A stretch of DNA of 64,000 bases, taken from positions 1 through 64,000 of the IMG/VR virus record IMGVR_UViG_3300037258_000352; one strand, 5' to 3'. Position 1 is the stretch's first letter; the number at the start of each line of letters is the position of its first letter. A model generated the notes under the pieces. The model was not told the DNA's origin. It worked only from the letters and a program-made list of their open reading frames with translations, and searched no databases. The position numbers were made by a program, and so were the translations under genes. Shown here piece by piece: positions 2,951-61,868 of this stretch. The DNA comes from a virus.

Positions 2951-5722
2951 GTGGCTCTGTTTGACCGGTGGCGTCGCCAGTTCGTGGAAGACCTGACCCT
3001 CGACCAGGCCACGGACTACCTCGCGCGGGAACGGACCGCGTCGCTGCGGGTCCTCCGCGCGGACGGGCAACGCGTCGATTTGACCGCCCAAGACGCTGGG
3101 ACCCGCCTCGCGCTGGTCCGGCAGGAATGGCAAACCGACGCGTGGACCTACCGCGACATGATCGGCGAGTTGCGTTACGCGCAACGACTATTGGCCCGGT
3201 CGGTGGCCACCGTGCGGTTCTTCGCCGCTGAACTGCCCGAGGACTCCACCGAAGACCCCATCGAGCTGGCCGGCCCGGACTACAAAGGTGACCCGGCCCT
3301 CGCGAAGGACGCGGTCGAGAACCTCGCGCGGCTCCCCCTCGACGACGGCCCCGACGGGTTCCTCGCGACGATGACGGAGAACATCGAAACCGCGGGGGAA
3401 TGCTGGATCCACGGGCAGCAAGACGACGAGGACGGGGAGACGTGGTCGATCCGGTCGGTGTCGGAAATCATGGGCGCCGGCGACCAGGTGATGCTGCTGG
3501 AGTTGCCCACGATTTCCAGCTTGGGGCAACGCGCGATCAACCCGAAAACGGAGGAGCTGCTCCGCTGCTGGACGCGGCACCCGAGGTGGGGGAAGCTCGC
3601 GGACTCCCCGCTGCGCGCGATGCTCGACGTCCTCGAGGAAGTGGTGTTGACGGGCCGGGAGCAGCGGGCCGCTGCTAGGTCCCGGATCGCGGCGAACGGG
3701 GTCATGCTGGTCCCGAACTCGTTGGAGCTGCTCCAGTCCCGGGACACCGCTGAGGACTCCGACGCCCCGGAAGGGCTCGCGGACACCGATTTCATGCGGG
3801 ACTTCACCGAAGCGTTAACCGCCCCCATCCGCAATGAGGGGGACCCCGGTGCGGTCGCGCCCTTGATCCTCCGGGGTGAAGCGGAAGCGTTGAAAGAGGT
3901 CCGGCACCTCACCCTGACCCGGGACGACGCCGCGAAGCTGATGGACCGCCTCCAAGGCGCTGTCCTCCGAATGTTGCAGGGCCTCGACATCCAACCGGAG
4001 CAGGTCACGGGTATCGGGGCAACGAACCACTGGGGTGGGTGGCAGATCGAGGCCAGCAACATCCGTCACCAGGTCCTCCCCACTTGCGGGGTCGTCGCGG
4101 GGATGCTCACGAAAGCGTTTCTACGGCCAGCGTTGAAAGCACTGGGTTATCCACCGGAGAAGGTCCGCCGGATCGTGGTTTGGTACGACCCGACCGCGCT
4201 GGTCGAGTCCCCCGACCGGTCCCAAGACGCCCGGGACGCGTGGGACCGGGACGCGATCTCCAACGCCGCGCTGCGGGAAGCGTTGGGGTTCCCCGAGGAC
4301 GCCGTCCCCGAACCCCACGAGCATCTCGTCCGTCTGCTGTCCCGTGGCCGGTTGACACCGCAAGCGGTGCCGCTGGTCGCGGCCCTGTCGGGGGTGAAAC
4401 TCGACGACCCCGATTTGCAGGCCGCGCTCGCGATCGCGGTCGGGTTGGTCGCGCCCGCTCCACACGCGGGACCACCGACGGTGCAGGGGCAGGTGGTTCG
4501 GGCGTTACCTGCTGGTCAACCTGCACCCCCTGCAGCACCCGCAGGGTCGACCGCGACCCCAGCCGGGCCGGGGCAGGTCGTGCCCGAACAGACAGCTCCC
4601 ACCCCAACCGGCCCAGCGGCGCCACCTGCAGTCACCGCCGCTGGTGTCCCGGTCGAGGGGTGGCGGGTGGACATCGACACCGCGCGGCAACTCGCGCAGG
4701 TCGACGCGGTCCTCATGGACCGGATCCTCACCGCCGCTGACGCCGCGATCGTTCGCGCGGTGGAACGCGCCGGCGGTCGGGTCCGTAACGCCGCCCGGAA
4801 AACCCCGGCCCTAGTCGCGTCGATCGAGGGTGTTGAGGTCACCCTCATCGCGTCCGTTCTAGGTCGGGACACCGTCGGATCGTTCGCGTCAGTGTCGGAT
4901 CTCCTCGCCGGGGCCTACACCCGCCTGCGGGACCAGTTCGGTGGGTGGCTCGACCAAGCCGCCCGGTCCGCCGCGACCATCGTCGTGAAACTCTTGGGCC
5001 TGTCGACCAGCAGTCCCGCCGGCCGCGAAATCCGGGACCAGGTCATCACCAGGTACTCGGTGCACCGCGACGCCGCATGGTCGGCGCTGTCCGAGGCGTT
5101 GGACGCGGCCACCGACAAGGCCTTGTTCCGCGCGGATCCCTTAACCCCGGATCCGACACCGGGGGAAGCAGCGGACACACTCCTCTCCCCCGCCGCGGTC
5201 GCCCGCGCGCTCGTCATCGCCGGCGGTGGGACACCTGGGCAGCCGGGGGACTTCGGGTTCGGGACCGGTCCGGTCACTAGGCAGGCCATGACGCAGCAGG
5301 GTGGGGTGGTGTTGGGGTGGGAATGGCAGTACAACCCCGCGCAACCCCGTCGGTCCCATTTCCTGCCGCACCAAGTGTTGGATGGCGCCCGGTTCGGGAC
5401 GTGGACCGACCCGAAACTCGACACCACCCCCGGCAGTGAGTGGATCGGGTCCTACTTCCATCCCCAAGACCACGACGGGTGCTTGTGCTCGTCGACACCG
5501 GTCCTCGCGTTCCCCACCAACGACCCCGACGACATCGTCGGTCAGCGGATCCGCGCGGCGCAGCAATCCCACCGCGGGCGGGTCGCCGCCAAGGTCGCTG
5601 CGGAGGACACCGCCGCCGGTCGGATCGGAACGTCCATTCAGAACGAGGTCGAGACCCGTGATCGGATACTGGCCGGCGTGGAAGCTCTCCGCGCCCACTA
5701 CATCGAAGGGGTGTCAGTCTGA
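2951..5722 (+). CDS. Portal protein fused to a MuF-like head morphogenesis domain
   Basis: 923 aa, GTG start behind TGGAGGT. The N-terminal ~480 residues read as an actinophage portal (dodecameric DNA gate at the capsid vertex), starting MALFDRWRRQFVEDL. A Pro/Ala-rich linker (about 490-560) follows. The C-terminal ~350 residues end with the pattern HDGCLCSSTPV, resembling the Cys-containing end of MuF/gp7-type head proteins. Portal and MuF are usually separate genes, so this is a fusion. The ATGA overlap with the next gene indicates coupled translation. Portal identity is from overall resemblance; the MuF call is weaker. Confidence 0.8.
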   Translation: MALFDRWRRQFVEDLTLDQATDYLARERTASLRVLRADGQRVDLTAQDAGTRLALVRQEWQTDAWTYRDMIGELRYAQRLLARSVATVRFFAAELPEDSTEDPIELAGPDYKGDPALAKDAVENLARLPLDDGPDGFLATMTENIETAGECWIHGQQDDEDGETWSIRSVSEIMGAGDQVMLLELPTISSLGQRAINPKTEELLRCWTRHPRWGKLADSPLRAMLDVLEEVVLTGREQRAAARSRIAANGVMLVPNSLELLQSRDTAEDSDAPEGLADTDFMRDFTEALTAPIRNEGDPGAVAPLILRGEAEALKEVRHLTLTRDDAAKLMDRLQGAVLRMLQGLDIQPEQVTGIGATNHWGGWQIEASNIRHQVLPTCGVVAGMLTKAFLRPALKALGYPPEKVRRIVVWYDPTALVESPDRSQDARDAWDRDAISNAALREALGFPEDAVPEPHEHLVRLLSRGRLTPQAVPLVAALSGVKLDDPDLQAALAIAVGLVAPAPHAGPPTVQGQVVRALPAGQPAPPAAPAGSTATPAGPGQVVPEQTAPTPTGPAAPPAVTAAGVPVEGWRVDIDTARQLAQVDAVLMDRILTAADAAIVRAVERAGGRVRNAARKTPALVASIEGVEVTLIASVLGRDTVGSFASVSDLLAGAYTRLRDQFGGWLDQAARSAATIVVKLLGLSTSSPAGREIRDQVITRYSVHRDAAWSALSEALDAATDKALFRADPLTPDPTPGEAADTLLSPAAVARALVIAGGGTPGQPGDFGFGTGPVTRQAMTQQGGVVLGWEWQYNPAQPRRSHFLPHQVLDGARFGTWTDPKLDTTPGSEWIGSYFHPQDHDGCLCSSTPVLAFPTNDPDDIVGQRIRAAQQSHRGRVAAKVAAEDTAAGRIGTSIQNEVETRDRILAGVEALRAHYIEGVSV

Positions 5723-6574: not shown

Positions 6575-6831
6575 CACAGTGCGTACTTAGTGTCGACTGC
6601 GAACTCGGGCTGCATGCGGCAGATGAGCACCCTTGCGGCCAACACAGCGAACCACCAGGAACGCCATGCCGATATTGTGAGGACCCCGTCCCGATGGACG
6701 GATCCTCGTGCCCGAAATGTTGGACACCGATCACGATCCCCTTAGCGAAGGCTCTGTTCGCGCCTTACGGGATCTCGGTTGATCCATGGCCTAACGATCG
6801 CCTTGATGAGAGTACCGGAGGTACCCGGTGA
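6571..6831 (+). CDS. Zinc-ribbon protein
   Basis: 86 aa from GTG 6571, which overlaps the preceding stop (GTGA). Central CRYCEDPVPMDGSSCPKCW is a CxxC-CxxC zinc ribbon; the N-terminus is Cys/His-rich too. Role in the head gene cluster unknown. Confidence 0.7.
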   Translation: MTQCVLSVDCELGLHAADEHPCGQHSEPPGTPCRYCEDPVPMDGSSCPKCWTPITIPLAKALFAPYGISVDPWPNDRLDESTGGTR

Positions 6832-9338
6832 CAGCACCAGCAGTTGATCAACCCGTGGAAACCGACGGGGAAGACACCGGCGGATATACCGGCGGGATGA
6901 TCGCCCTCATCCCGTCCGTCGGCGACGCGCAGCAACTCGCCGTCGCCGGTGGCGACGACCCAGACGAAATGCACCTCACCCTGATCTACCTCGGGGACGA
7001 CCTGTCGGACTGGGACGACGCGCAACGCGCGCAGGTTATGGCCGCCGCGCAGCAAACCGCCGCGACCATGAGCCCGGTGCAGGCCCGCGCGTTTGGGCAC
7101 GCCCAGTTCAATCCCGACGGTGGTGACGACGGCTCCCGGGACCCGTGCGCGGTCTATCTGATCGGGGACACCGACCAGCTCGGGCCCGCGCGAGACGCCC
7201 TCGCGAGCACCACCGACCAGGACCAGCACACCCCGTTCGTCCCCCACGTGACCGCTGGGACCGGGGTGAACGCGAGTGACCTCTCGTACACCGGGCCGGT
7301 CACGTTCGACCGGATGCGCGTCGCCATGGGTGACGACACCACCGACATACCACTAGGGGGCGACAGTTCCGTGACCGCTGCAGCACCGACCGCCGTCGAT
7401 GTCGGTTCGCCGGCGACGATCCTGTCCGACACCGGTGACCAGATCACCGTCCACTGGGACGCGCTCGCGGTGGAAGGCCTCGACACCGGAGACGGCCGGT
7501 ATTTGACTCCCGGTGGTGGGTCGACGAGGACACCACCGCTGTCTCTTCTCGCGTTGCCCTACGCGAACCACGGTGGGCAAGACGCCCCCGCTGCGGAGGT
7601 GTTCGGGGAGATCACCACCTTGACCCGCCGGCCCGGCCCGGAGGTCACCAGCAAACGCACCGGGGAACCGTTCCCTGATGGGACGTTCGTGTGGTCCGCG
7701 GACGCCACCATCGACGGCACCCACAAGTTCGCGGACATGGTCCGGAAAGGACACCTGCGGGGTGGGTCTGTTGACCTCGCGGACCTCGACGCTGAGTTGA
7801 TCGACGAAGACACCGCCGCTATGAGCGACAACCCGCGTCGGCGCGCTGTCCTCACCCGGTATGAGATCGCCGCCGCGACGATGGTCCCGGTCCCCGCGTT
7901 CGCCGACGCCTACTGCGACGTCGTCGGCTCCCTCCCCGCGGCGCTGGCCGCGTCCGCGCTGCCCACCGAGCTGTGGAAGGAGCCCGTCCCGATGTGGCGG
8001 TCCAGTGAGGTCGGGGACCTCGTCGCTCGCACCCCGGGGGGCAGCGTCAAAGCCAGCGCCCGGGACAAGGCCGCAGCGAAGGGCCACGCCCTGCCCGACG
8101 GGTCGCTGCCCATCGAAACCGCTGATGACCTCACTAACGCGATCAAACGCGCCGGGTCGGCGAAGGACCCCGTCAAGGCCCGCAAGTTCGTCATGGCCCA
8201 AGCGAAGCGCCTCAAACTGGCCGACAAGATCCCCGACAATTGGAACGCGGACGGCACCACCGGTGACGACGCTGTCACCGCAGCAGCGGTGACCCGACGG
8301 CCTCCCCTGTCGTGGTTCACCGATCCCAGCCTCAACGGGGAAACCCCGATCACCATCACCGACGACGGGCACGTCTACGGGCACGTCGCGGTGTGGTCCC
8401 GGCCCCACATCGGGTTCAACGGGCAACGGATCTACGCCAAGCCGTCCCGCGCGGACTATGCGTTTTTCAACACCGGCGCGGTCCGGTGCCTCGACGAGGA
8501 CGGGACCACGAGGATCGCCGCGGTTGGGCACCTCACCATGGGCACCGGCCACGCCGACCTCCAAGCCTCGTACACCGCAGCGGCACGGCATTACGACCAC
8601 ACCGGGTACGCGTGGGCTGACGTCGCCGCCGGCGACGACAAGTGGGGGGTGTGGGTCAACGGGATACTCAAGCCGGGGATCACCGAGGAGCAAATCAGTT
8701 ACGCCTACGCGCACCCACCATCAGGGGATTGGCGTCCCATAGACGGCGGGTTGGAAATGGTCGCGGCGTTGTGCGTGAACACCCCCGGGATCCCCGTGTC
8801 GAGGGCTCGGGTCGCGTCCGGTGAAGTCGTCGCGTTGGTAGCCGCTGGCGCGCTGGCCCCTGCACCTCCACAGGGTGGGATCGGTGCGATGGTGGATTAC
8901 GACCAGCTCGCTGATCGGGTCGCGGACCGGATCCTGACCCGGCAGCAGCACACCGCTGAGCTGGCCGCGCGCCGAACCGCGGCACTAGCGGCTACCGACG
9001 ACACCACCGAACGGATGGCCGCCGCACTCGCCGCGATCCCCGATGACGACGACGAAGTGTCGACCTTCGAGGCGGTCCGCGCTGACACCCTCGCGTCATT
9101 CCTAGCGGGGAAGGAGATAACCCCGAAAGACGCGGAGAACACGGCCCGCCTCAAGGAATACTGGACGCATGGGAAAGGAGCCGCGCTAATACGCTGGGGT
9201 GAGCCATCAGATTTCGACAGGTGTCGGACACATTTAGCTAAATACGTTCCACCTGGGGGAACCCTAGATGGCCTATGTGCAAACATGCACCATGACGCAC
9301 TAGGTGTTTGGCCGGGGAAGGAACATGGCAAGAAGTAG
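6828..9338 (+). CDS. 2H-phosphoesterase / capsid maturation protease fusion
   Basis: 836 aa, GTG start with GGAGGT, overlapping the zinc-ribbon stop. Residues ~22-165 carry the paired HxT motifs of 2H phosphoesterases (HLTLIYL at 49, PHVTAG at 139). Residues ~200-360 resemble an actinophage prohead protease (GGSVD, later RYEIAAATMVPVPAFADAY), expected to process capsid subunits. Next is a Lys/Ala-rich segment seen in actinophage head proteins (AAAKGHALPDGS, res ~405-465), a beta-rich region, a coiled helix (~690-750), and a C-terminal module (EYWTHGKGAALIRWG) that is less GC-rich than the rest. The protease call follows from position and motifs; the 2H substrate is unknown. Confidence 0.75.
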   Translation: MTAPAVDQPVETDGEDTGGYTGGMIALIPSVGDAQQLAVAGGDDPDEMHLTLIYLGDDLSDWDDAQRAQVMAAAQQTAATMSPVQARAFGHAQFNPDGGDDGSRDPCAVYLIGDTDQLGPARDALASTTDQDQHTPFVPHVTAGTGVNASDLSYTGPVTFDRMRVAMGDDTTDIPLGGDSSVTAAAPTAVDVGSPATILSDTGDQITVHWDALAVEGLDTGDGRYLTPGGGSTRTPPLSLLALPYANHGGQDAPAAEVFGEITTLTRRPGPEVTSKRTGEPFPDGTFVWSADATIDGTHKFADMVRKGHLRGGSVDLADLDAELIDEDTAAMSDNPRRRAVLTRYEIAAATMVPVPAFADAYCDVVGSLPAALAASALPTELWKEPVPMWRSSEVGDLVARTPGGSVKASARDKAAAKGHALPDGSLPIETADDLTNAIKRAGSAKDPVKARKFVMAQAKRLKLADKIPDNWNADGTTGDDAVTAAAVTRRPPLSWFTDPSLNGETPITITDDGHVYGHVAVWSRPHIGFNGQRIYAKPSRADYAFFNTGAVRCLDEDGTTRIAAVGHLTMGTGHADLQASYTAAARHYDHTGYAWADVAAGDDKWGVWVNGILKPGITEEQISYAYAHPPSGDWRPIDGGLEMVAALCVNTPGIPVSRARVASGEVVALVAAGALAPAPPQGGIGAMVDYDQLADRVADRILTRQQHTAELAARRTAALAATDDTTERMAAALAAIPDDDDEVSTFEAVRADTLASFLAGKEITPKDAENTARLKEYWTHGKGAALIRWGEPSDFDRCRTHLAKYVPPGGTLDGLCANMHHDALGVWPGKEHGKK

Positions 9339-10795: not shown

Positions 10796-11003
10796 CCAGC
10801 GGGACGAGCGTAACCGGCAATCGCGTTTCCGTTACCACCGTCACTGACCGTGAGCCTAGGTTGATCGAATCGTAGGGGCACCGCCCCCAGGGTCACCGCG
10901 CTTAGCGCACCGATCCCCGGGCCGCTGGTGGTTCTTGGCCTAGCCGACACCCCTTAATCACACTCTCGTGTTTTCGTGTGCGCCCGGAAAGGCCCCCACT
11001 CAG

Positions 11004-13151
11004 ATGACAATTGAGCAGCTCAGAGAGCTGATCGAGCGCCTGCAGGCGGACGCCACGCAGGTCACCAGCGACGAACTCGCCCAGGCCCGGTCTTTCATCC
11101 GGGACCAGCGTAAGCACCTCGCGGAGCAACCCGCGTCGGATGACGTGATTACCGGGTTGGAGGAGCTCGGTACGTCTTTCAAGACGGTCAAGGGTGTGCA
11201 GGAGACCCGTTCTGCTGACGCCGCGAAGTTGGAGGAGACCCGCAGGGGTCTACTCGCGGACCTCGACGACGACGAGCCCCCCGCTGCTGCTGGTGCTGAG
11301 GGTGACGCGCCTACCGGTGACGCGCCGGCGGACACCCCACCGGTGGAGCCGACTGGTGACGACACCGGCCAGACCGCCCCGGAGATCCCCACGCAGGGCG
11401 CCCCTGCCGACGCTCCGGCCCCCACCGCGGACGCTGGTACCCAGGTTGATGCGCCCCTCGCGGTCGCTGCTGGTGGCGGCAACGTCCCAGCCCGCCGGGC
11501 CCCGATCGGTACGTTCCGCACCGGTGGCGGCAACACCCCGACCCAACGGCCAGCGGCGATGATCCAAACCGCGACGACCGCTGCCGGTGGAGCCCCCGGG
11601 TTCGTGCAGGGCCAGAAGATCAGCAGCACCGCTGAGCTTGCGCTCGCGGTCACCGCGCAGCTCCGCGCGATGTCCTCCGGTCGCGGTGGCACCGGGGAAA
11701 AGGTGTACGTCGCGAACACCGCGATCACCTACCCGGAGGAGCGGCAGCTCCGGTCGAAGGACTGGGTTGGGAACTTCAGCAAGATCGAAGCGGTCACCGG
11801 GGAGCAGGCCCTGGTGGCTGCTGGTGGGTTGTGCGCGCCACCTCAGACTCTGTACGACGTGCAGGTCATCGGGTCGGTGCGCCGGCCGATCCGGGACGCG
11901 CTCGCCCGGTTCCAGGTCGACCGTGGTGCGATCCAGTTCCGGCCCAACAGCTCGGCCGCGACCGCGTTGACCACCGGCACCGGTACTGGTGTCGACACGT
12001 GGACCGTGGAGCAGGACGCCTCAAGCTCGGGGGACACCAAGGGTTGTTATGTGGTGGACTGCCCGTCGCTGCAGGAAGCTGAGATCCAGGCCATTTACCT
12101 GTGCTTGGAGTTCAGCAACGTCACCGCCCGCTTCGACCCGGAGACCACCGCAGCCAACATTCAGCAGGGCATGATCGCCCACGCTCGGCGCGCGGAGAAC
12201 GAACTCCTCCGGCAACTGCAGCTCGGGTCGAAGGTCTTGTCCGGTGCGCAGGTCGTCGGTGCGTCCCGCGACATCCTCGTCTATTTGGACAAGGCCGTCG
12301 CCTACTACCGCAACCGGCACCGCATCGACACCACCGTCACCCTCACGTTGCTGCTGCCCGCGTGGGTGCTGTACGAGATGCGGTCGGACCTGGCCCGTCA
12401 GATGGCTGCGGGGGACTGGGCCTCAGCCTTGTCGGTGTCCGACGCGATGATCATGGCGTGGTTCGGTGAGCGGGGCGTCAACGCCGTCTTCCATTTAGAC
12501 GGTGGCATCGGTGGCGTCAACGAGGTCCAAACCCTCACCGTGACCGGTACCCCCACCGGCGGTAGCTACACGTTGACGTTCAACGGGCAAACCACCGGCG
12601 CGATCCCGTACAACGCTGCAGTAGCGGACGTGCGGACCGCGTTGGAGGCCCTGTCGAACATCCAATTCGGGTCCGTCGCCGTCGCTGGTGGACCACACCC
12701 GGGGACCGCGATCACCGTCGCGTTCGGTGGTGACTACGCCGAGACCGACGTCCCGCAGATGACGGCCACCGGCTCGTTCACCGGTGGCTCCTCACCGGCG
12801 ATCGCGGTGACCACCACGACCACATCGTCTCTGACCAGCGTCGTCAACGGGGTGTCCATCGCGTCGCAGGTGTACGCCAACGCCGCCGCCGGGGCCGCGA
12901 TCCCGAACTACCCAGCGCAGATCGATGCGCTGCTGTTCGTGACCGGCACCAAGCTGTTCCTCGACGGCGGGAACCTCGACCTCGGGCTCGTCCGGGACTC
13001 CTCACTGAACTCCAGGAACCGTTACCGGCAGTTCTCCGAGACGTTTGAGGGCGTCGCTGACCGCGGTATCGAGAACCTGCGGCTCGTCCTGTCCGTCGTG
13101 CCCAACGGTTCCACCGTCGGCACGGTCAGCCCGTCCAGCGTCACTTCCTAA
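11004..13151 (+). CDS. Major capsid protein with N-terminal scaffold-like region and Ig-like insertion
   Basis: 715 aa; the ATG at 11004 follows GGAAAGGCCCCC. Residues 1-90 are coiled-coil and 90-190 acidic Pro/Ala-rich, which is scaffold-like. The HK97-fold shell follows. Before the typical C-terminus (KLFLDGGNLDLGLVRDSSLN) sits an inserted ~105-residue Ig-like domain starting NEVQTLTVTGTPTGG (res ~508-612), closely matching one in the tail tube gene at 14008. Substrate of the upstream protease by context. The 209-bp leader (10796-11003) holds a CACAC/GTGTG hairpin but no gene. Confidence 0.88.
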   Translation: MTIEQLRELIERLQADATQVTSDELAQARSFIRDQRKHLAEQPASDDVITGLEELGTSFKTVKGVQETRSADAAKLEETRRGLLADLDDDEPPAAAGAEGDAPTGDAPADTPPVEPTGDDTGQTAPEIPTQGAPADAPAPTADAGTQVDAPLAVAAGGGNVPARRAPIGTFRTGGGNTPTQRPAAMIQTATTAAGGAPGFVQGQKISSTAELALAVTAQLRAMSSGRGGTGEKVYVANTAITYPEERQLRSKDWVGNFSKIEAVTGEQALVAAGGLCAPPQTLYDVQVIGSVRRPIRDALARFQVDRGAIQFRPNSSAATALTTGTGTGVDTWTVEQDASSSGDTKGCYVVDCPSLQEAEIQAIYLCLEFSNVTARFDPETTAANIQQGMIAHARRAENELLRQLQLGSKVLSGAQVVGASRDILVYLDKAVAYYRNRHRIDTTVTLTLLLPAWVLYEMRSDLARQMAAGDWASALSVSDAMIMAWFGERGVNAVFHLDGGIGGVNEVQTLTVTGTPTGGSYTLTFNGQTTGAIPYNAAVADVRTALEALSNIQFGSVAVAGGPHPGTAITVAFGGDYAETDVPQMTATGSFTGGSSPAIAVTTTTTSSLTSVVNGVSIASQVYANAAAGAAIPNYPAQIDALLFVTGTKLFLDGGNLDLGLVRDSSLNSRNRYRQFSETFEGVADRGIENLRLVLSVVPNGSTVGTVSPSSVTS

Positions 13152-14007: not shown

Positions 14008-14979
14008 ATGTCAGGTCAGTACGACGACGCGGGGACACTGTTCGCGCTGGGATTGCGGCTCACGAAACTCGATGTTGACGGCTCCCCCCTATCCGGGGAC
14101 CAGAACTGTTACGTCACCGACTCCCTCGTGTCGATGGGCGCCGGCCTGAACTTCACCAGCAACAAGGTCGTGGAGCAGGTCAACGGCCGCGGTCAAACCT
14201 GCGTGTCCTACCAGGCCCCCGACACCCTGCAGTCCGCGTCTATCAGCCCGTTGCAGGTGTGTGTCCCCGACCCCAACATTCTCGGGTTCCTTATCGGTGG
14301 GGACGTGATCCTGACCCCGTCGGAGGTACAGTCCCTCACGATCACCGGTGGCCCCACCGGGGGAACGTTCACCCTCACCTATTCCGGGCAGACCACCGCG
14401 ACGATCGCGTACAACGCCGCCGCTAGCGCGGTCCAAACCGCTTTGGAAGCCCTGTCGAACATTGACCCCGGGGACGTGACCTGCACAGGTGGCCCACTCC
14501 CCGGGACCCCCGTTGTGATCACCTTCGGGGGGCAGTTCGCGGGGACTGACGTCACCGAGATCACCACCTCGTCCGGATCACTGACCGGGGGCACCACCCC
14601 AACCGCAGCGATCTCCACCACCACCCCCGGTGGGACCGGCAACGCCATCGGGTGGCGCGCACCGCAAGTCAACGTCGTCCCCGTCCCCAACGGCGTCGCG
14701 ATCGAAGCGTGGGCCAACGCGATCGTTGACAACGCTGTCGCCTCAGTCCTCCCGTACTGGCACTTCATCTGGCCCCGAGTCCGATTGACCCTGTCGAAAT
14801 CGTTCACGTTGGACGCGGCGACCGTGTCGATCCCAGAGTTCGATGGGACCGCGGAGCAGAACGGGAACTTCGGGACCGGCCCCGTCGGGGACATCACCAT
14901 CCCCACCGACCGCTGCTGGCAGTTCGTGCGGGAAGCTGTGGACGTGACCGCGACACCCGGCTTCATAACCGTCACCTAG
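14008..14979 (+). CDS. Major tail (tube) protein with Ig-like domain
   Basis: 323 aa, ATG after AGGGAGTAGGG. The N-terminal ~100 and C-terminal ~110 residues look like a siphovirus tail tube subunit. Between them lies an Ig-like module (EVQSLTITGGPTGGTFTL, res ~109-205) nearly the same as that in the capsid protein. Such modules usually decorate the particle surface. It precedes the connector genes instead of following them. Confidence 0.65.
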   Translation: MSGQYDDAGTLFALGLRLTKLDVDGSPLSGDQNCYVTDSLVSMGAGLNFTSNKVVEQVNGRGQTCVSYQAPDTLQSASISPLQVCVPDPNILGFLIGGDVILTPSEVQSLTITGGPTGGTFTLTYSGQTTATIAYNAAASAVQTALEALSNIDPGDVTCTGGPLPGTPVVITFGGQFAGTDVTEITTSSGSLTGGTTPTAAISTTTPGGTGNAIGWRAPQVNVVPVPNGVAIEAWANAIVDNAVASVLPYWHFIWPRVRLTLSKSFTLDAATVSIPEFDGTAEQNGNFGTGPVGDITIPTDRCWQFVREAVDVTATPGFITVT

Positions 14980-36070: not shown

Positions 36071-36718
36071 TCATTTCAGGAGCCGCAGGTTCTGCGCCCC
36101 CATCTCGTACGCCATCACCGTGAGCAGGCCCGCGATCAGGACCGCCGCGATCCCGTTCCACACCGCGCTACCGGTCAGGATCTGCAAACCGATCCCCACG
36201 ATCGCCAACGCCAGACCGGCGACGTCCATCGCGTCCTCCGCGGCCTGCGTTTTCATGGCCGTGTCGGTGGTGGTCCGCAGGAACCGAACCCACGGGATCC
36301 CGGCCCGTTCCCGGTTCAGGGTCCCGACCGCCCGCAGGAGCGACGTTCCCTCCAACATCGCCGAGCCGGTGAGGACCGCGAGCGCGACCAGCATCGACAT
36401 CCCCGCGACCTGCGGGTCGAGGATCGACTTCACACCCTCGTACGCGGCGAATAACCCACCGGTGACGAAAATGTTGATCGCCGCGACCAGGCCCCAGAAG
36501 AACCTGGCCTTCGTCCACCACTTCGAGTGCCACACCCCAGCGAGCAGGATCGGTGCGGTCAAGGAATCGACGAGGGAGTGGGTTGCTTCGGCGAGCATCG
36601 CCGCGCTACCGGTGATGACCCCGAGGACTGTTTTCGCGACCAGGATCGCGAGGTTCACACCGAGGGAGTAGAAGAGGTTCCCGGTGGTTTCGCTGGCCTC
36701 GACGGTCGTGGTGCTCAC
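36071..36718 (-). CDS. Cation diffusion facilitator-like transporter
   Basis: 215 aa, GTG after GACACGGAGGACAGC. Six predicted spans. The motif MLAEATHSLVDS in the second span matches the metal-site HxxxD of CDF proteins, and AEDAMDVAGLA in the fifth span supplies the second acidic pair. The usual cytosolic C-terminal domain is absent, so it is a minimal CDF. Probably exports Zn2+/Mn2+/Co2+-type ions by proton exchange. Unusual cargo for a phage; host-derived origin likely. Confidence 0.65.
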   Translation of the reverse strand: MSTTTVEASETTGNLFYSLGVNLAILVAKTVLGVITGSAAMLAEATHSLVDSLTAPILLAGVWHSKWWTKARFFWGLVAAINIFVTGGLFAAYEGVKSILDPQVAGMSMLVALAVLTGSAMLEGTSLLRAVGTLNRERAGIPWVRFLRTTTDTAMKTQAAEDAMDVAGLALAIVGIGLQILTGSAVWNGIAAVLIAGLLTVMAYEMGAQNLRLLK

Positions 36719-60479: not shown

Positions 60480-61260
60480 CCGCGCGCTGCTGCACATCGT
60501 CCACATGGACGACTCCTTTACCGAAGTCGAGGTGGGCGTCGAGGGTGCGCAGCACTGGTTACACACCCCGATGGGTCTGGTCATCGACGCCGGTGACGAC
60601 ACGGGCATGTGGACCCGGTGGCCGTTCGCGACGGTCAAGAGCTACACCGTGACCCCCATCGATGGCACCAACGACGTCGCCGCCCTGGACCCGGGCACCA
60701 CCACAGCCGGGTCTGACGCCGGCGTCATAGACCCGGACGACGTGACCGAGCCCGGGACCCGATGGTCGACGCTGTGCGTCCGAGACGGCCGGCAGGACGG
60801 GGCAGTGACCGTCGGGGACTCCCGGCTCCCCGCCGCGGTGGTCCTCGACTCAATCCGGGTCCGTGGCGTAGCAGAAGCCGCGCGGATGTGGCCGGCGCTG
60901 ACTGACGACGACCTCAGGGTGTTGACGACTCTGGTGGTGGACCTCGACATGCGGGCCGCCACCACCGAACGGCCCGGGCCGTCGACGGTGACCAACCCGC
61001 ACCGGGTCCAGCTGTGCTGGGTCGACGACCAGAACCACGGGCGGGTCAGTGTGTTCCCGAACCGGGCCCCGGTCCACTCGATGGTCGCCCGGGTCCTGGC
61101 CGGGGAGGACCTCGGGGCCGTCGCCCGGGACTACGACATCCCCCGCCACGAGCTGGCGGTCGTGGTCCGGCTCGCGGAGGAACTGATCACCAACGTCGAC
61201 GGACCCGAGCACCTCGGGGCACCCGACCGGGCCACCTACGAGCAGCAGGGAGGGTTCTGA
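60472..61260 (+). CDS. Hypothetical protein with DUF433-like C-terminus
   Basis: 262 aa. The C-terminal ~70 residues (VFPNRAPVHSMVARVLAGED, LGAVARDYDIPRHELAVVV) resemble the DUF433/antitoxin-type HTH. The N-terminal part is beta-rich. Possibly a regulator of the adjoining genes. Confidence 0.5.
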   Translation: MSDRALLHIVHMDDSFTEVEVGVEGAQHWLHTPMGLVIDAGDDTGMWTRWPFATVKSYTVTPIDGTNDVAALDPGTTTAGSDAGVIDPDDVTEPGTRWSTLCVRDGRQDGAVTVGDSRLPAAVVLDSIRVRGVAEAARMWPALTDDDLRVLTTLVVDLDMRAATTERPGPSTVTNPHRVQLCWVDDQNHGRVSVFPNRAPVHSMVARVLAGEDLGAVARDYDIPRHELAVVVRLAEELITNVDGPEHLGAPDRATYEQQGGF

Positions 61261-61868
61261 TGTCCCGGGGCGCCCGGTGGGTCACCGCGGTCCTCGTCGC
61301 GGCTGGTGTCGCTGTGGCGGGGTGTCAGAGCACCACCGCGACCCGGTCCCCGATCGTGATCTCGGCGGTGGACCCGGGGACGGTCGCGCCACCGTATGAC
61401 CGGGACAAGGATTTCGGTCGGGGGTGGGCCACCGTCCACGGGCACTGCGACACCCGCGAAGCCGTCCTCGAGCGTGACGCTGCGCTCAACGCGGTCGACA
61501 CCGACGGTGACGGCTGCAAAGACGACGGCCCGATCGTCGATTTGTACACCGGGAACACGATCCTGCCGGCGCAGGCGCAGATCGACCACGTGTACTCCCT
61601 GCGGCAGGCGTGGGTGGGGGGTGCGTGGAAGTGGAGCGCGGTGCAGCGCCGGATATTCGCGTTGGACATGGGGAACCTGCGGGCGGTGACCAGCGCGGTG
61701 AACGACCGCAAGGGGGACCTCGGACCAAGCCAGTGGCGCCCGCCGGCGCGGTCCGGGTGGTGCGGTTACCAGATGATTTTCAGGGCGACAGCGGTCCGGT
61801 GGAACCTGCCGATCACCCCCGCCGACGACACCGCTCTGCGGGACATGGCCGGGACCTGCCCCAAATAG
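61260..61868 (+). CDS. Secreted lipoprotein HNH nuclease (DUF1524-type)
   Basis: 202 aa, TGATG overlap. Signal peptide with lipobox VAVAGC (Cys ~22). The DUF1524 core: QIDHVYSLRQAWVGGAWKWS, LRAVTSAVNDRKGDLGPSQW and WRPP, with catalytic DH and downstream NxxKG. Such secreted HNH nucleases occur in actinomycete chromosomes and plasmids. In a prophage or plasmid state it could degrade extracellular or incoming DNA. Confidence 0.8.
   Translation: MSRGARWVTAVLVAAGVAVAGCQSTTATRSPIVISAVDPGTVAPPYDRDKDFGRGWATVHGHCDTREAVLERDAALNAVDTDGDGCKDDGPIVDLYTGNTILPAQAQIDHVYSLRQAWVGGAWKWSAVQRRIFALDMGNLRAVTSAVNDRKGDLGPSQWRPPARSGWCGYQMIFRATAVRWNLPITPADDTALRDMAGTCPK

Follow-up and report, generated by a model that had tools for sequence, protein, structure and literature searches.

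The available portions of Iyer et al. (2017, PMC5512222; 2022, PMC9503650) describe phage polyvalent proteins in which a 2H phosphoesterase domain is joined to MuF or portal. These fusions are regarded there as likely to enter the virion and be injected, and to work either as RNases or by countering nucleotide signals. In the same portions, the enzyme reported as fused to a capsid-processing peptidase is a Nudix domain and not a 2H domain (Iyer, Burroughs and Aravind 2022, PMC9503650). Actinophages also carry VIP2/ADP-ribosyltransferase–MuF fusions (PMC7302621). In T4, the prohead protease gp21, which cleaves after L/I-X-E, also trims the ADP-ribosyltransferase Alt, an enzyme encoded by a separate gene that is packaged and ejected into the host (PMC9026906), and in SPN3US the gp245 protease cleaves internal head proteins (PMC10052503). 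The phage-encoded Acb1 (T4 57B, FBB1; PMC9117128) has the 2H fold and an HxT/HxT tetrad and is a free enzyme. Finally, the Gordonia phage proteins GTE6 gp18, Zitch gp20, and Ali17 gp16 combine a 2H domain with a protease-like domain in a single chain, are encoded between the portal and major capsid genes, and are labeled "head maturation protease" or "capsid maturation protease", often with the automatic name "RNA ligase".

The window analyzed here covers the initial 64 kb of a virus record 104 kb long; the annotated phages most closely related to it have Gordonia and other actinobacteria as hosts. It contains an 836-residue ORF (6828–9338, plus strand, as are the portal and major head protein genes and the parts of these three given below) with a GTG start and a GGAGG six bases upstream. 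The ORF lies between the gene for a portal protein that bears a long extension at its C-terminus (2951–5722; PHROG 776 over residues 29–625, E 2e-95) and that for the major head protein (10968–13151; PHROG 777, E 3e-65), which begins with a scaffold region and contains an Ig-like insert; the order portal, protease, major capsid gene is that expected of a prohead protease. PHROG profiles match the chain as "RNA ligase" (residues 13–180), a portal/MuF-type profile (204–731), "head maturation protease" (482–832), and a small family (762–835). Together with Pfam matches and two relatives that are 63–68% identical (L002 and L003), these delineate a head polyprotein composed of a 2H phosphoesterase domain, protease domain 1, a small domain, protease-like domain 2, and a C-terminal domain. 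The small basic domain (residues 406–475; 8043–8252) is shared with Gordonia phage GMA6 (56% over residues 412–473) and has no match in Pfam; "duf6582" serves here as a working label for it. The C-terminal domain (residues 757–835; 9096–9332; PHROG 6439) is a module that recurs alone in related phages.

The chain therefore differs from the 2H–MuF/portal fusions in the available portions of PMC5512222 and PMC9503650, with which it shares a 2H superfamily domain in a head protein, in that its 2H partner is a prohead protease. GTE6 gp18, Zitch gp20, and Ali17 gp16 share its 2H domain, protease-like domain 2, and gene position, but have the 2H domain on the C-terminal side, whereas in the window protein it is N-terminal and accompanied by protease domain 1. 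The VIP2/ADP-ribosyltransferase–MuF proteins resemble it as enzyme domains fused to a head protein in a matching cassette, with another enzyme and another head partner. The initial annotation had suggested that joining an enzyme of the 2H fold to a head protein could serve its delivery at entry, an idea already known in outline from the available portions of PMC5512222 and PMC9503650; in those portions we did not find described the 2H–protease fusion, its wide reshuffling and re-insertion, or the candidate processing site considered below. The reshuffling and the candidate site are new here and attach a testable mechanism to the idea.

The 2H domain spans residues 18–180 (6879–7367) and carries, as the initial annotation noted, two HxT motifs at 2H spacing, HLT at H49–T51 (6972–6980) and HVT at H140–T142 (7245–7253); a third HxT, at H568, falls in the second protease-like region. 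Taken alone the pair is weak evidence, given that shuffled versions of the 836-residue chain hold 1.9 HxT motifs on average and 18% of them contain a pair 60–120 residues apart. That the 2H phosphoesterase domain is real is confirmed by the agreement of PHROG, Pfam, the AlphaFold2 model, and solved 2H structures, which goes beyond the motif pair. PHROG 2659, "RNA ligase", covers residues 13–180 (E 1e-37), and the isolated domain matches the Pfam family 2_5_RNA_ligase2 (PF13563; E 4e-6, 27.3 bits against a cut-off of 27), as do 60 of 65 relatives at E ≤ 0.1, with PF02834 matched by 40; by profile (PF13563/PF02834), the window domain is a LigT/ThpR-like 2′-5′ RNA ligase family member. The model (pLDDT 96.4, pTM 0.91) shows the bilobal 2H fold with one HxT/S motif per lobe at the superfamily spacing of ∼70–100 residues, and it superimposes on 1IUH with Z 15.0 (149 residues, 3.3 Å) and on numerous further 2H chains with Z 10–15. 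Against a library of predicted viral structures, the model first retrieves proteins of Gordonia and Mycobacterium phages that bear the name "RNA ligase".

The active site is conserved across the subfamily. Both catalytic histidines and the threonine of the first motif are invariant in 91 of 91 2H loci; although the pattern used to scan viral contigs contained the first HxT motif, L007–L015 were found independently of it by tblastn and all retain the motif. Close relatives show no loss of HxT, a point on which the initial annotation had staked its reading, since L002 and L003 keep both motifs. At the second motif the threonine position is occupied by Thr in 69 domains, Cys in 20, and Ile in 2, with the replacements found partly in Streptomyces-type phages. 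The HxC form (20 of 91, among them L014, L051, L055, and L076) is an unusual substitution in a catalytic motif.

This conservation bears on the notion that the 2H domain serves structure or assembly, for instance as a scaffold or chaperone segment within the protease, and that its enzymatic activity is irrelevant. Such a role would fit the residence of the domain in an assembly protein, and numerous relatives of the protease in Microbacterium and Mycobacterium phages work without a 2H domain, which would permit an accessory function. Retention of both histidines and the first threonine in all 91 loci while the remainder of the domain varies, together with the occurrence of the domain as a separate gene, makes this notion very improbable.

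The initial annotation linked the 2H domain to the anti-CBASS enzyme Acb1. The comparison with Acb1 and LigT folds that it called for bears out the 2H fold and places the domain nearest to LigT/ThpR, with Acb1 farther away: the top solved matches are LigT-type proteins of Thermus and Deinococcus (Z 15.0 and 14.7), followed by archaeal proteins, Bacillus YjcG, Usb1, and Escherichia coli LigT (Z 13–14), whereas Acb1 scores 10.5–11.2. The HxT/HxT tetrad is common to both, the window motifs aligning with H44/T46 and H113/T115 of T4 Acb1. The substrate contacts of Acb1 are not: Y12, W74, F107, E141, and W147 correspond to M24, F94, H134, A166, and T172 (hhalign with the motifs as anchors), such that four of the five have no counterpart and only the aromatic W74 is kept, as Phe, in an alignment of low identity and uncertain register. 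The Acb1 family of Pfam (PF23474) has no match to the window domain up to E 0.1 and weakly matches 12 of 65 relatives (best E 4.6e-5), and PADLOC returns no match for 65 members of the 2H subfamily. Fold ranking and contact residues thus give no support to a specific link, and the relation to Acb1, which also differs as a free enzyme from the protease-fused window domain, is at the level of the superfamily only. In T4 (L095:4592–5411), the Acb1 gene (57B) adjoins ipI, the gene for a head-packaged, injected protein.

The same fold ranking is relevant to the possibility that a virion-delivered 2H domain is an RNA enzyme, which would trim 2′,3′-cyclic phosphate ends or act as a Usb1-like RNase on RNA of the host, either countering RNA-cleaving defenses or attacking host RNA. 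The closest folds, at Z 13–15, are LigT/ThpR-type 2′-5′ RNA ligases and human Usb1, and an RNase or 2′-5′ oligoadenylate role was favored for such fusions in the available part of Iyer et al. 2017 (PMC5512222). Against this stand the strongly acidic character of the domain and, in the accessible portions of Iyer et al., the statement that such 2H versions were never seen with RNA ligases, as well as the genomic context. The initial annotation had raised RNA repair or tRNA processing on account of tRNA-like elements in the vicinity; the window yields no tRNA with ARAGORN, Rfam gives no match, the sole tRNA of the 104-kb record lies at ∼97.9 kb, and an RtcB ligase was looked for in the record and is absent, which leaves RNA repair coupled to nearby tRNAs unsupported. 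Overall, we consider a virion-delivered RNA enzyme unlikely. The 2H domains of the subfamily are all acidic (pI 4–5, with one at 6.3) and so have no obvious DNA anchor, which counts against the packaging mechanism proposed below.

The protease half is likewise confirmed: the prohead protease region recognized in the initial annotation matches PHROG 18402, "head maturation protease", with E 9e-85, and is seen in the fold, so that the 2H domain is fused to a prohead protease. In an AlphaFold2 model of residues 204–672, the first half (204–378) adopts the fold of the T4 gp21/herpesvirus assemblin clan, aligning with T4 gp21 (5JBL; Z 9.5, 114 residues, 2.9 Å) and with herpesvirus proteases (Z 7–8.6, the highest being pseudorabies pUL26N, 4V07), and the second half lies outside these matches. 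Protease domain 1 (residues 204–380; 7437–7967) contains H248 and S314; the serine is present in 45 of 45 non-gap rows of the alignment, and the H248 column is variable. Protease-like domain 2 (residues 490–665; 8295–8822; PHROG 18402), the portion labeled "capsid maturation protease" in many actinophages, contains H588 and S632, of which the serine is kept in 48 of 48 sequences and the histidine in 33 of 48. In MuF-fused relatives from Streptomyces-type phages a Gln replaces this histidine (13 of 48), and, given these variants, the active protease region may differ among phages. The interval 7437–8822 thus encodes two distinct protease-like regions within a single chain; a tandem duplication relating them has no sequence support (hhalign probability 1%). 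A search of solved structures with the protease profiles and the capsid protein yielded no relative that fixes a mature N-terminus.

The 2H subfamily is present in 377 phage records. An alignment query against IMG/VR returned 288 loci, the best 80 of which were kept; the window 2H domain used alone gave no match in IMG/VR. Among 91 2H loci, 54 are fused to MuF or protease domains, 33 adjoin head genes, and for 4 neither was found, so that 87 of 91 are fused to or beside head genes, a share that may drop in remoter relatives, as the 80 contigs are the best matches to the window. The domain orders comprise 2H–protease, protease 1–2H–protease 2, protease 2–2H, MuF–2H–protease, and a separate gene; that is, the 2H domain is positioned before, between, or after the protease domains, after MuF, or alone. 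Mapped onto a 2H-domain tree, the architectures require 21 changes, where shuffling the labels gives 46 and the lowest possible number is 6. The architectures therefore cluster on the tree, yet the domain has repeatedly moved or split off, indicating an association with the head that persists and is not one frozen fusion.

Separate 2H genes within the head cassette include Wally gp94 and Evamon gp17, and Evamon carries both an ADP-ribosyltransferase–MuF fusion and a 2H gene. In Evamon (L010:5956–6534) and YungMoney (L101:4956–5507) the 2H gene and the end of the protease gene have four bases in common, and the 2H proteins as annotated start with MTAAG; the arrangement looks like a fusion that came apart at the candidate site described below. 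Stand-alone 2H proteins from myophage-like loci (L011, L012, L015, L036, L047, L052, L058, L089, and L094) have ADAE[QE] directly preceding the domain, with N-termini that are otherwise variable ahead of it; considered as a second processing motif, the ADAEQ segment is absent from the neighboring head proteins. Orf10 of Gordonia phage GMA2 (L007:3811–6462) places a C-terminal 2H domain after a long unidentified region with three copies of the candidate motif; a stretch of this protein that by eye resembles an ADP-ribosyltransferase was confirmed neither by Pfam nor by a PDB sequence search.

The linkers of the window protein contain four copies of an Ala-rich pentamer, three of them in stretches with pLDDT < 50. 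VTAAA (residues 182–186; 7371–7385) lies directly C-terminal of the 2H domain, at a position identical in L002 and L003; LAASA (residues 373–377; 7944–7958) is in a low-pLDDT linker C-terminal of protease domain 1; a second VTAAA (residues 483–487; 8274–8288) is in a linker with pLDDT < 50 N-terminal of protease-like domain 2; and LVAAG (residues 670–674; 8835–8849) follows the latter domain. The pattern, [LVIM][TVAI]A[AS][GAD], was derived after reading the linkers beside the 2H domain. Among 33 non-redundant fused proteins, it occurs within 30 residues on the N-terminal side of the 2H domain in 13 (0.7 expected from composition-preserving shuffles) and within 30 residues on the C-terminal side in 14 (0.6 expected); within the domain it does not exceed expectation (1 of 33 vs 2.6). 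The strict motif flanks both sides in only 5 of the 33. Among 26 non-redundant relatives it precedes protease-like domain 2 in 21 and follows it in 24. In the major head protein of the window, LVAAG (residues 282–286; 11811–11825) marks the junction between the scaffold region and the HK97 fold and is followed by GLCAPPQ, and in most of 20 non-redundant major capsid proteins the motif sits at the scaffold/shell junction, with G(G)[WYL]C[AS]P following immediately.

Since the flanks had already been seen when the pattern was drawn up, it was applied to a hold-out set of eight further, previously unused phages with 23 control proteins. The protease proteins contain 36 copies (3.1 expected) and the capsid proteins 22 (3.1 expected), with the junction motif in all eight phages. 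The controls are also enriched, with 10 copies against 3.8 expected (2.7 times the shuffled level), and an Ala-rich linker style therefore accounts for some of the signal; relative to the controls, the motif density is about five-fold for the protease and four-fold for the capsid proteins. From this placement in the sequences, we infer that proteases of this clade cut at the pentamer during maturation and that the protease would excise the 2H enzyme inside the prohead. The T4 protease, which shares the fold of protease domain 1, has its own Glu-based specificity, whereas the candidate site is Ala-rich. The literature yielded no usable virion proteomics, cleavage data, or cleavage sites for 2H-fusion proteins or their phages. 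The form [LV][TVI]AAG directly before G(G)WC[AS]P recurs at the scaffold/shell junction in the window (11811–11825) and in the major capsid proteins of L099–L106, extra copies of the motif occur in the scaffold region, and the junction motif is also present in phages that have no 2H domain.

These observations can be assembled into a mechanism in which the 836-residue chain, a head polyprotein of modular build, would process itself. The protease part would bring the entire chain into the prohead and would cut at [L/V/I/M]-[T/V]-A-[A/S]-[G/A], both at the scaffold/shell junction of the capsid protein and in its own interdomain linkers, liberating a compact (19 kDa) 2H phosphoesterase within the head. 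The freed enzyme would be retained in the virion, be ejected alongside the DNA, and, once inside the cell being infected, hydrolyze a 2′,3′- or 3′-5′-type phosphodiester by metal-free HxT/HxT chemistry. The likeliest substrate would be a nucleotide second messenger of host immunity, followed by an RNA end or short RNA; the messenger is favored because such an enzyme would be useful immediately at entry and because a superfamily relative, T4 Acb1, acts on one. Fusion to a head protein, a conserved active site, and a strong association with the head cassette make packaging and delivery of the 2H domain a reasonable reading; the observation of the initial annotation is confirmed and its interpretation partly supported. 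Trimming of Alt by gp21 (PMC9026906) and cleavage of internal head proteins by SPN3US gp245 (PMC10052503) provide precedent for the proposed steps, though with a Glu-based site. Peptides released in proheads frequently leave via pores (PMC10052503), and the freed 2H domain could be lost in this manner. As a whole, a self-processing head polyprotein that frees a 2H enzyme for injection, with an immune nucleotide as the likely substrate, is our best explanation, held tentatively and at somewhat less than an even chance.

Structural genes are normally expressed late, which is compatible with a role of the 2H domain in the producing cell, where, synthesized alongside the head proteins, it would remove immune nucleotides raised on capsid sensing and its fusion would merely tie the dose to head synthesis. 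In staphylococcal Thoeris, the trigger is the major head protein and the signal is gcADPR (PMC11312562); that a capsid protein triggers at least one nucleotide-signaling defense makes late action a serious rival. Separate 2H genes in the head cassette, such as those of Wally and Evamon, need no packaging, and freed domains may escape from proheads via pores. However, a cytoplasmic role does not require repeated fusion to proteins of the head interior (MuF and protease), and we judge late action rather unlikely.

If packaging and release of the 2H enzyme take place as proposed, siphophages that have no T4-type targeting peptides would possess a concrete route for effector loading, in which the effector is fused to the maturation protease and the protease's own cleavage sets it free. 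The candidate site would then predict mature capsid termini in phages of Gordonia, Mycobacterium, Rhodococcus, Microbacterium, and Streptomyces and would bring further hidden cargo to light in these phages, which have been well collected and in many of which the 2H enzyme goes by the label "RNA ligase". A more general form of the proposal, that actinophage head proteases are self-cleaving polyproteins serving as interchangeable carriers, in which a domain at any joint flanked by LVA[A/S]G would be packaged, freed, and injected, and in which the nucleotide-cleaving 2H domain here would disarm host signaling before any phage gene is expressed, is doubtful.

Several other features of the window were observed. 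Upstream of the portal gene, a 956-residue ORF (18–2888) consists mostly of degenerate repeats of ∼16 residues (type 'GTGTAPLGALAATATG') and has no match in Pfam or PHROG. Ig-like inserts of one kind are present in the major head protein (10968–13151, residues ∼517–619) and the major tail protein (14008–14979, residues ∼107–205), and these resemble a tail-tip cage protein (9d93). A phage-borne transporter of the cation efflux family is encoded on the minus strand at 36071–36718 (Pfam E 5e-23), and a protein matching the C-terminal, nuclease-type domain of GmrSD (E 6e-6) is encoded on the plus strand at 61260–61868.
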